DNA of 64,000 bases, taken from positions 1 through 64,000 of the forward strand of contig NZ_JACVOV010000002.1 of the NCBI RefSeq assembly GCF_018882245.1. The letters run 5' to 3'. The stretch comes from Polynucleobacter sp. AP-Capit-er-40B-B4 (lineage in GTDB: Bacteria; Pseudomonadota; Gammaproteobacteria; Burkholderiales; Burkholderiaceae). The notes beneath the pieces are model-generated. The model had not been told where the DNA came from and did not search any database. It worked only from the letters and a program-made list of their open reading frames with translations. Both the position numbers and the translations under genes were made by a program. Positions 1 to 33,714 of this stretch are shown piece after piece. Position 1 is the first letter of the stretch. Each line of letters begins with the position of its first letter.

Positions 1-112
1 CAAAAGCAATGGCTGCGCCAATCTTACTTAAGCTGCCGATCTCTTCAGTTGAGGCATTCGCAGTAATGCGATGACCAGTTAGAAATACTAGTTTTTGACG
101 GATTGTTGACAT
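1..112 (-). CDS. partial hypothetical gene (N-terminal 37 codons), probably SOS-regulated
   Basis: An open reading frame starts at an ATG at 112-110 and runs off the left edge. The visible protein begins MSTIRQKLVFLTGHRITANA and ends ...IGAAIAF; I do not recognise the family. Two other ATGs in the same short stretch lead to early stops, so this frame is the only long one. The ribosome-binding GGA (122-120) and the A of the ATG lie inside the right arm of a perfect 11-bp inverted repeat. A LexA-type box lies about 105 bp upstream. That it is real and damage-inducible is inference from these signals. Confidence 0.55.
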   Translation of the reverse strand, partial: MSTIRQKLVFLTGHRITANASTEEIGSLSKIGAAIAF

Positions 113-144
113 GCATTCATCCAATAGTTGTAAGGATGAATGCA
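112..144 (-). promoter_or_regulatory. inverted repeat covering the start region of the partial gene
   Basis: Perfect 11-bp arms (112-122 and 134-144, TGCATTCATCC / GGATGAATGCA) with an 11-nt loop. In the minus-strand transcript the second arm carries the GGA of a possible Shine-Dalgarno and the first base of the start codon. The hairpin could therefore hide the ribosome site, or the DNA could be a protein operator. Confidence 0.55.
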
Positions 145-158
145 GTATTGAGTCTTAA

Positions 159-177
159 AGGCTCATAGAATGAGCCT
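159..177. promoter_or_regulatory. second leader hairpin between the LexA box and the partial gene
   Basis: Perfect 8-bp arms AGGCTCAT / ATGAGCCT with a 3-nt loop. On the minus strand it is followed by TTT only, so it would be a weak terminator. It lies in the predicted leader of the partial gene at 1-112 and could attenuate or stabilise that transcript. Confidence 0.45.
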
Positions 178-217
178 CATAAATTTATGGCAAATATTGG
201 CCCATTTAATCAATTAG

Positions 218-237
218 TACTGTATGTATGTACAGTA
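218..237. promoter_or_regulatory. LexA (SOS) box
   Basis: The 20-bp palindrome fits CTGT-N8-ACAG with TA/TA flanks and differs from the E. coli ideal TACTGTATATATATACAGTA at only two inner positions. Betaproteobacterial LexA uses the same motif. The only gene reading away from it is the partial minus-strand gene starting at 112; the other neighbour (382-1557) ends towards it. No other such box was noticed in the window by eye. Confidence 0.75.
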
Positions 238-381
238 TCATAAACCAGTTACTTTCTCAAGTCACTATTCTAAGAATTTCTGTCGCACCCTTAATTCGAA
301 GCCCTCAACCGCCTGAATCAAGAAGTGCTTCATATCAACATAACAAATCCAAACCCATTAGCTTGAAACTCTCAGTTCGCT

Positions 382-1557
382 CTACTTCAAATTAAACCTT
401 TGAATCCACCGCCCTGTGCGCTTAATGGACATATTTCGTGGGTCAGTTGAGTTCACCTGATGAATGGCCCACGCACGCCATTTTTTGTAGCCAGGAATCT
501 CTTTGCTCGCAGCTTCAACCTTCTTATCTAGGGCATCAATTAATTCCTGAATTTTTTCAGCCCTTCTAATGTCCTTTAAGGCTTGACTCATTAATCTCAA
601 ACGATTTTCAATTATTCGATCAGTCTCCTGCTGACGGCGAAGTGTAGCTTTAGCCTTTCTTTCTGCAATATTCGCAATCGCTTCCTTTTTCTTATCAACT
701 TGACGTTGATATAACCATTCGATATTACTTCTCTTACGCTCCTCAATATCCATCAATAGCTCAATAGCGAGGTCTCTTAAGATTTCCGGAGTGATATCTA
801 CATATTCTCGATAGTCTTTGTTCTCCGACATTCGATTTTGGTCGCTTGTCCAACTAAAGCCATAAGCCTTTCCGGGGGAGCTCTTCCTGCGATAAAAGTG
901 ATTGCCATCATCAAAGCAAACGAATCTGAAGTAGTGGTAGCTACCATCCATGTCGACGCTCATAGATTGCGTTCTAGGTCCGTGCACTTTTACCCTGAAC
1001 CCCAACTTCTCGAAGTAAGTAAAGAAACTATTAAGTGCTGACAACAGTCTTAGTCCCGCAGGATGTTGATACCTAGGCTTATAAAAGCAGTATTTTTCTT
1101 TTGCGATATCAGCGTCGTAGCCCAGCAATCTCTCAGTAATTGGATGGGGCCTGCTAATGCTTTTGGGAATAGGGATTAAGGGAACGAGAGCCTCAATCTT
1201 CAACCTCACCTCATCAATCGTCTCATCGAATTTTGGAGGAGGTGGCAACTCCATTTGAGCCAACTCCTCATCCGTTTTCTCTGGTTCGTCGAAATAACCA
1301 TACCGACTGCGAGAACCCCCGCCGATATGGACAAATTGAGATTGGAATGGATACAGCGTTGGCAACTCAGTCTTAATGACTTTCTTGCCATTTGCCAACT
1401 TTGCCCAATATCCGAGGCCAGGCGTGGGCACTTTTGCTGCTTTACAGATCTTTCTTAAGCCAACATCAGACAATTCAAATTCTGCCGCAAGCTGCGTCAT
1501 TGGCTTTGACCATACTAGGTCATACATTTCCTGTCTGGTTAGCGTTCTGGGTGTCAT
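382..1557 (-). CDS. hypothetical protein, 391 aa, HTH-like N-terminus
   Basis: The N-terminus reads LTRQEMYDLVWSKPMTQLAA and continues with a stretch ending in PTPGLGYWAKLANGK. I recognise this as a recurrent signature of uncharacterised bacterial proteins: a helix-turn-helix-like segment followed by a GYWAKL motif. Residues about 270-350 are strongly charged and probably coiled coil. There is no signal peptide or membrane segment, so it should be cytosolic. GAAAGG precedes the ATG closely. It stands alone in the AT-rich region beyond the tRNA-Ser gene, which suggests acquired DNA. Function unknown; DNA binding is a guess from the N-terminal helices. Confidence 0.7.
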   Translation of the reverse strand: MTPRTLTRQEMYDLVWSKPMTQLAAEFELSDVGLRKICKAAKVPTPGLGYWAKLANGKKVIKTELPTLYPFQSQFVHIGGGSRSRYGYFDEPEKTDEELAQMELPPPPKFDETIDEVRLKIEALVPLIPIPKSISRPHPITERLLGYDADIAKEKYCFYKPRYQHPAGLRLLSALNSFFTYFEKLGFRVKVHGPRTQSMSVDMDGSYHYFRFVCFDDGNHFYRRKSSPGKAYGFSWTSDQNRMSENKDYREYVDITPEILRDLAIELLMDIEERKRSNIEWLYQRQVDKKKEAIANIAERKAKATLRRQQETDRIIENRLRLMSQALKDIRRAEKIQELIDALDKKVEAASKEIPGYKKWRAWAIHQVNSTDPRNMSIKRTGRWIQRFNLK

Positions 1558-2019: not shown

Positions 2020-2109
<90 letters not shown>

Positions 2110-8605: not shown

Positions 8606-8634
8606 ACTATGGTAGGCCAATGGCCTACCATAGT
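8606..8634. promoter_or_regulatory. operator palindrome of the brnT operon
   Basis: Perfect 14-bp arms, ACTATGGTAGGCCA / TGGCCTACCATAGT, around one central base. It spans nearly the whole promoter (-35 part to -10) and ends 5 bp before the brnT start. This is a textbook site for autorepression by the XRE antitoxin. Confidence 0.85.
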
Positions 8635-8650: not shown

Positions 8651-8681
8651 AAAAAACGCCTAGCATTGCTAGGCGTTTTTG
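8651..8681. terminator. bidirectional terminator of hppA (copy 2 of the duplicated hairpin)
   Basis: Stem CGCCTAGC (8657-8664) / GCTAGGCG (8668-8675), loop ATT, A-run before and T-run after. It lies 20 bp past the hppA stop on the minus strand. With 7964-7993 it shares about 28 of 33 bases, and the TA module lies between the two. Confidence 0.9.
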
Positions 8682-17296: not shown

Positions 17297-17330
17297 AAAA
17301 AGCCCCTAAGTAAAACTAGGGGCTTTTTTA
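17297..17330. terminator. terminator between ilvD and the PCu(A)C gene
   Basis: GCCCCTA (17302-17308), an 8-nt loop, TAGGGGC (17317-17323), A-run before and T6 after. It can serve both convergent genes. Confidence 0.9.
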
Positions 17331-33624: not shown

Positions 33625-33664
33625 GGGCAAAATAGATGGTCCTCTGAAATAACTGCAGAACAAT

Positions 33665-33694
33665 AAAAAACCCAATCAGCTGATTGGGTTTTTT
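33665..33694. terminator. terminator between cphA and fbp
   Basis: The 18-bp perfect palindrome CCCAATCAGCTGATTGGG (33671-33688) with A6 before and T6 after. It can serve both convergent genes. Confidence 0.9.
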
Positions 33695-33714
33695 ATTTGG
33701 ATAGGTTGATCAAC

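Follow-up and report, generated by a model that had tools for sequence, protein, structure and literature searches.

How would a gene be governed whose leader carries a LexA (SOS) box and, downstream of it, an RNA fold that buries its own ribosome-binding site? The question is raised by the first 64,000 nucleotides of contig NZ_JACVOV010000002.1 of Polynucleobacter sp. AP-Capit-er-40B-B4 (hereafter the window), where a gene for a membrane protein of the DUF4407 family runs off the contig end on the minus strand. A first-pass annotation of the sequence had taken the locus for an SOS gene with two leader hairpins, a design it likened to SOS toxins such as TisB and to other gated damage genes. 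Comparison across 186 genomes of the genus leads us to a different proposal, which we offer tentatively and with a little less than even confidence: that the control region consists of two nested promoters, an outer LexA-type promoter (P1) giving a locked mRNA and an inner promoter (P2), of a type found before genes for WYL-domain regulators, giving a largely unlocked one. The features concerned are the following.

218-237, minus strand: LexA (SOS) box of P1, with core CTG-N10-CAG at 220-235
204-209, minus strand: candidate P1 -10 element, TTAAAT, a conserved block just 3' of the box in the alignment (an alternative -10 overlaps the box)
161-175, no strand assigned: palindrome GCTCA-N5-TGAGC, core of the 159-177 repeat and probable operator of P2
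144-149, minus strand: candidate P2 -10 hexamer, AATACT, invariant in all 14 aligned leaders
137, minus strand: predicted P2 transcript start, give or take a base or two, as judged from the -10 hexamer
112-144, minus strand: the lock, an RNA hairpin (5' arm 144-134, 3' arm 122-112) hiding the Shine-Dalgarno (SD) sequence and the A of the ATG
120-122, minus strand: SD core GGA, 7 nt 5' of the start codon
2-112, minus strand: first 37 codons of the DUF4407 gene, truncated by the contig end

The LexA box and the hairpin over the ribosome-binding site

Both perfect inverted repeats described by the first-pass annotation, 159-177 and 112-144, lie where it had placed them, and the stem of the second does take in the GGA together with the first base of the start codon (ATG, 112-110, minus strand), as it had said. 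The two have fared differently as hairpins. The 112-144 repeat (112-122/134-144) has an 11-bp stem and an 11-nt loop, and the window contains 5 perfect stems of 11 bp (loops of 3-15), where 12 shuffles average 0.08. The hairpin is predicted in all 14 leaders, with isolated folds of -10.1 to -16.7 kcal/mol, and in the long RNA the SD arm has a probability of being unpaired of 0.006-0.138 across them. The comparison of related genomes that the annotation had called for shows that this hairpin covaries, whereas the core of 159-177 never varies. Taken alone, the SD hairpin has 93.5% of its alignment cells paired, with changes on both sides in 3 of 11 pairs, and it carries G-U pairs as well as compensatory changes. 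No shuffle in 500 matched its paired percentage or covariation score, and 455 of 500 reached its number of pair types. Arms are also matched within species: none of 20000 permutations of the 14 leaders equaled the native pairing, and 2 of 20000 did so with the 12 distinct arm pairs. Among 182 hairpins built from swapped arms, 134 were weaker and 30 stronger. Because compensatory changes fall in both noncoding arms, an RNA fold is the best reading of this repeat, the relatedness of the leaders notwithstanding. The four other perfect 11-bp stems of the window lie at 8606-8634, 8652-8680, 17297-17328 and 33662-33697.

The LexA box, which the annotation had called near-perfect, is confirmed as well. 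Its sequence, TACTGTATGTATGTACAGTA, with inverted-repeat arms at 218-224 and 231-237, is the sole match with 3 or fewer mismatches to the searched pattern in the 64 kb, and 100 shuffles lead one to expect 0.00. The pattern CTGT-N8-ACAG is conserved in 13 of 14 aligned leaders, the copy in G061 being degenerate; in G068, which carries a divergent copy of the gene, the 90 bp preceding the palindrome showed no LexA box. Similar boxes in the window's own genome precede lexA (identified by its match to PF01726) and genes that we take, from their sequences, to be umuD and recA, with the lexA box resembling ours least closely. In the contexts compared, similarity among the leaders begins at the LexA box and extends downstream of it, not upstream. 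The gene thus has a LexA box of its genome's own type upstream, and we predict that LexA would bind it and that DNA damage would induce the promoter.

The encoded protein departs from the earlier expectations. The N-terminus, described as unlike any known family, belongs to Pfam DUF4407 (PF14362), for which the homologue in G059 scores 62.4 bits against a curated cut-off of 31.3 (E = 5.8e-17), and the 37 residues in the window are the exact N-terminus of two 489-aa database proteins. TisB-type toxins are small hydrophobic peptides. The 13 close full-length homologues measure 486-493 aa and are membrane proteins heading a three-gene cluster, not small peptides, and the toxin design is not supported. 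These relatives also speak against a reading frame that ends just beyond the edge of the window.

The palindrome and the proposed inner promoter

As a hairpin alone the 159-177 repeat is unremarkable, since its class is common here: it has an 8-bp stem (159-166/170-177) with a 3-nt loop, and 16 such stems (loop 3-6) occur in the window against 4.4 in shuffles. Nor does it look like an RNA fold across the leaders, where the core is invariant, no pair has changed on both sides, and flanking pairing is about at background (a mean of 1.8-2.0 extra pairs versus 1.5 for other palindromes). It behaves instead as a DNA palindrome shared with unrelated genes, so that one of the two proposed leader hairpins, the one over the SD sequence, stands as an RNA fold and the other is more probably a DNA operator to which a regulator would bind.

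Two further roles for the palindrome were considered and set aside. One, considered by eye, is that its 5' arm pairs with the SD sequence; this pairing is lost where the centre of the palindrome reads ATCTA. The other is a short upstream open reading frame (a start codon, AGC, and a stop after 0-1 further codons), which inspection by eye shows in 13 of 14 leaders, one of them GTG-started. It was dismissed since ATGAGC belongs to the palindrome itself and no SD sequence is conserved.

Recurrence of the palindrome was examined in several ways. Searched over the 186 genomes, a covariance model built on the leader matched strongly at 14 places (73-93 bits), all of them DUF4407 leaders, and 38 of the genomes were matched at E <= 0.1. 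Of 19 weaker places inspected, 16 contain GCTCA-N5-TGAGC, 9 of these 16 with ATACT 10-12 bp further on. With free spacing, a pattern search returned 66 matches, spread over 51 of 186 genomes; the reversed control had 15, as counted from its table. All 15 DUF4407 matches have a gap of 12 between palindrome and ATACT, as do 21 of the other 51 matches (binomial 3e-14 versus a uniform distribution), these 21 comprising 20 distinct strings that include several orthologous copies. The next commonest spacing among the 51 is 6, with 8 matches (for example in G018, G108 and G028), some of them alike in sequence.

The genes behind these sites belong to a limited set of families. Fourteen stretches that bear DUF4407 contain 32 such palindromes between them, and across all loci, which were retrieved partly through palindrome searches, 59 of 89 distinct palindromes lie upstream of a gene from seven reference families. 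An unselected test is provided by 15 stretches chosen solely for carrying DUF4407, in which a palindrome within 130 nt upstream was scored. It precedes all 5 WYL genes and 8 of 10 genes of the MRDYTY family (one more with one mismatch), none of 2 MTAQ genes (2 of 2 with one mismatch), and neither of 2 VVP genes. Within the same 130 nt it was found upstream of none of 10 KLNC genes. For DUF4407 itself the figure is 14 of 14, as expected from how the sites were found. In the islands, distances from palindrome to start codon are 61-77 nt for DUF4407, 61-69 nt for MRDYTY and 62-88 nt for WYL genes.

The position of the palindrome relative to a -10-like box suggests what it does. Thirteen promoters of WYL and MRDYTY genes, partly orthologous, have a perfect palindrome, and in these the hexamer 11 bp past it has A at its second and T at its sixth position in every case and agrees with TATAAT at a mean of 4.38 of 6 positions; at other offsets from 0 to 35, 4 of 13 at most have this pair of bases, and the mean does not exceed 3.15. 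Matches to a -35 element in these promoters are poor, averaging 0.8-2.3 of 6. A palindrome upstream of the -10-like box would be outside the mRNA made from that promoter. All 13 promoters combine a palindrome over the -35 region, a fixed distance to the -10 and a poor -35, and the DUF4407 leaders share the spacing.

Conserved genes for peptides of ~32 aa (of the type FLIWLVFAE...GEWQRSEWIC) share the palindrome promoter at loci L128, L130, L131, L141, L142, L143, L174, L175 and L182. Their products are possibly small membrane-active peptides.

A candidate for the regulator is encoded in the islands themselves, where WYL genes occur in 5 of 15 DUF4407 stretches, each with the palindrome upstream. 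The protein has WYL and WCX domains, with a DeoR-type helix-turn-helix above the Pfam cut-off in 1 of 2 copies scanned. Among solved relatives PafBC matches best (2.8e-17), followed by other WYL chains including DriD (8tp8, 2.1e-6), with BrxR weak (5.3e-3). According to the excerpted preprint PMC12340889, promoters of DriD, a WYL activator responding to DNA damage in Caulobacter, have the site over the -35, a fixed -10 distance and a poor -35, a geometry the same in kind as that described here. The DriD site, however, is ATACGAC-N7-GTCGTAT rather than GCTCA-N5-TGAGC, the single-stranded DNA (ssDNA) signal is hypothetical in our case, and the island protein matches solved PafBC more strongly. 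PafBC, a WYL damage regulator of mycobacteria and the best solved relative in sequence, uses a -26 motif in place of the -35, as part of PMC11804915 describes; it is a heterodimer with its own motif, whereas each WYL-bearing stretch here has one WYL gene and the site is palindromic. BrxR resembles the island protein in being an island-borne WYL regulator with inverted repeats before its own gene (a repressor acting at 11-bp repeats in defence islands, in the excerpted account of PMC9122601), yet the island protein is closer to PafBC and DriD. P2 is probably switched by such an island-encoded WYL regulator, which would bind the palindrome and may respond to damage or ssDNA.

Two proposed nested promoters and the alternatives

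What ties the two elements together is where the inner transcript would begin. The AATACT hexamer (149-144) shares its last base with the beginning of the lock's 5' arm, and a start 7 nt after it, at about 137, would fall inside that arm and leave 4 of the 11 pairs. The residual fold of the predicted P2 transcript is -1 to -7.9 kcal/mol, weak in most leaders. In 14 of 15 DUF4407 leaders, G068 being the exception, pairing between the SD region and the 14 nt that follow the hexamer is better than in shuffles (p <= 0.05). A lock across the predicted start is also seen in 10 of 13 of the ~32-aa peptide genes, 1 of 2 MTAQ and 1 of 5 VVP genes, and in none of 13 MRDYTY or 10 WYL genes; the shares for the peptide and MTAQ genes are biased upward because these were found partly by a model that rewards hairpins.

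On the nested-promoter reading, P1, carrying the LexA box, should fire in the SOS response, and its mRNA would hold the full 11-bp hairpin, burying the SD sequence and the A of the ATG, and be poorly translated. P2 would consist of the palindrome (at about -38 to -24) and a -10 hexamer that begins 11 bp beyond it, without a convincing -35. Its transcript, forming only about 4 of the 11 pairs, would be largely freed for translation. The lock would in this way all but silence SOS-driven and read-through mRNA and leave P2 mRNA to be decoded, and full expression would then need the inner, WYL-type signal. The inner element is also the more constant of the two, present in 15 of 15 matches compared with 13 of 14 for the box, which suggests that P2 is probably the main promoter.

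An arrangement of this kind exists and works in phage T4, to judge from the part of PMC3014915 that deals with gene e (lysozyme), where long early transcripts are locked ~100-fold and late promoters yield mRNA without the 5' part of the fold. The likeness lies in a longer transcript that folds, here by prediction, over its ribosome site and would be poorly translated; in T4, promoters within or beside the 5' strand of the fold yield transcripts that lack it. The T4 promoters, though, are early and late phage promoters, whereas here a LexA box and a WYL-type palindrome are involved and the inner start is a prediction.

Several observations weigh against the nested promoters. The reading offers no explanation for why SOS should drive a locked message. 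Release by the P2 start is partial by calculation: the mean probability that the SD sequence is unpaired rises only from 0.14 to 0.28-0.38, and in 3 of 14 leaders (G112, G045 and G010) it stays mostly paired in the predicted P2 transcript (probability unpaired 0.12-0.21). The P1 -10 position is uncertain, a consensus scan having put the site at 265-237 instead. The shuffle and permutation controls on the lock leave relatedness in, and with both repeats pooled, the paired percentage is equaled or exceeded in 35 of 500 shuffles and the count of two-sided changes in 97 of 500, a control that is weak because the 159-177 repeat does not covary. Of the 89 distinct palindromes, 30 were matched to no gene family. 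In the window's own genome no WYL gene was found in the window and 13 further stretches, the rest being unsearched, and the remainder of the DUF4407 gene and operon is absent from its assembly.

The alternative that survives best, although we consider it unlikely, keeps a single SOS promoter with two RNA leader hairpins, the one over the SD sequence being opened by processing or by ribosome standby as for tisB. The LexA box and the SD hairpin are indeed both conserved, and in E. coli the LexA-controlled tisB mRNA of the TisB/IstR-1 system, with its sequestered ribosome site, is translatable via standby, as the excerpted text of PMC7708055 has it. The parallel stops at that combination of LexA-type box and hidden ribosome site. 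TisB is a pore-forming toxin of a type I toxin-antitoxin pair, a kind in which an antisense RNA blocks a standby site, and the protein here, of ~489 aa in a three-gene cluster, is far larger, and the single-promoter account is at odds with a 159-177 core that is invariant, pairs about at background in its flanks and recurs before unrelated genes with constant spacing to a -10-like hexamer.

Rather less probable, in our judgment, is a conditional switch on one long mRNA, in which the SD hairpin opens in response to temperature, a small RNA or a protein and the inner promoter is inactive. The conservation of the hairpin with G-U and compensatory changes would suit such a switch, as would the range of stability of the isolated fold. 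It does not account for an AATACT that is invariant in 14 of 14 leaders, at the same spacing from the palindrome as the WYL and MRDYTY hexamers, and a scan of the leader against Rfam at gathering thresholds matched no family, though such a scan says nothing about an RNA that is new, an antisense RNA included.

Still more improbable is that SOS would lower the output of the operon, P1 making a locked mRNA and interfering with P2 by transcribing across it. This would follow from the nested layout and fits an inner element kept in all 15 DUF4407 matches, while the LexA box is degenerate in G061 and not found near the G068 palindrome. Against it, a LexA box is usually the sign of an inducible gene. 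Least probable of all is that 159-177 is an intrinsic terminator or a dispersed intergenic repeat, since, although some copies lie directly 3' of a reading frame in the contexts compared and a few (L129, L134) are long-stemmed, no terminator-like site is called at 159-177 in the window and the palindrome stands at set distances before DUF4407, MRDYTY and WYL starts and was not found within 130 nt of any of the 10 KLNC genes.

Beyond the nested promoters themselves, a wider reading is conceivable, and we hold it with somewhat more doubt. Two independent DNA-damage circuits would converge on one operon, LexA acting at the outer promoter and a DriD/PafBC-like WYL activator at the inner one. SOS alone would give a silent or low-yield message or even a turn-down, and only the second damage signal, independent of SOS, would lead to protein. 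The palindrome would then define an undescribed WYL regulon of Polynucleobacter islands, with the lock restricted to certain genes, namely the DUF4407 operon and those for the ~32-aa peptides.

The operon and its setting

The DUF4407 gene is an occasional presence, matched in 15 of the 186 genomes with the window's own genome counted, a total to which G066 contributes a fragment located at a contig end and G068 a divergent 449-aa copy. In a sample of the family it occurs in 3 of 398 genomes and in a sample of the order in 3 of 399, the own genome being within both. All 15 stretches retrieved around it contain the gene or a fragment followed by two further open frames, which look like lipoprotein genes from their N-termini. 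The Pfam entry assigns DUF4407 no function, and a full-text literature search turned the family up in only three papers, mentioned once or twice in each. A structural model has a coiled coil surrounded by long helices, and two cysteines, C193 and C225 (P0008 numbering), are invariant across 42 aligned sequences, which would suit a periplasmic disulfide under the presumed topology. These features suggest an accessory, island-borne operon of envelope type, made up of the DUF4407 membrane protein and two lipoprotein-like genes. If its product were a damage-responsive envelope assembly, harmful when mistimed, that would account for the lock, although this goes well beyond the sequences.

Other traces of the operon and its neighbors were seen. 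G059 (P. bastaniensis) has two copies (L045, L047), each with box, palindrome and lock. In G083, G108, G031 and G110 (loci L111, L112) the match is confined to the last 29-37 residues of the second lipoprotein, as if these were the scar of a lost operon. An HD-domain gene (HD_4, PF13328; L045:6577-7137 and counterparts) often lies 3' of both lipoprotein genes in the islands. At L092, in a genome from another family of the order (G767), the open frame next after a distant DUF4407 gene appears to encode a von Willebrand A domain protein.

Directly upstream of the LexA box in the window is a 391-aa open frame (382-1557, minus strand), for which no Pfam match above cut-off was found, nor any match at E <= 0.1 in NCBIfam, PADLOC or PHROGs. 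Some 1.8 kb in from the contig end, at 2023-2109 (minus strand), Rfam calls a tRNA gene, and the small accessory genes that separate it from the end may, at a guess, form an island at its 3' side.

If the nested-promoter reading is right, an operon wired both to the SOS repressor and to a WYL-type damage regulator would show how two damage signals are ranked, with an RNA lock deciding which of two transcripts gets decoded. The palindrome and its -10 geometry offer a candidate regulon for an uncharacterized WYL regulator in a freshwater genus, and the leader provides a handle on DUF4407, a family rarely mentioned in a full-text literature search.
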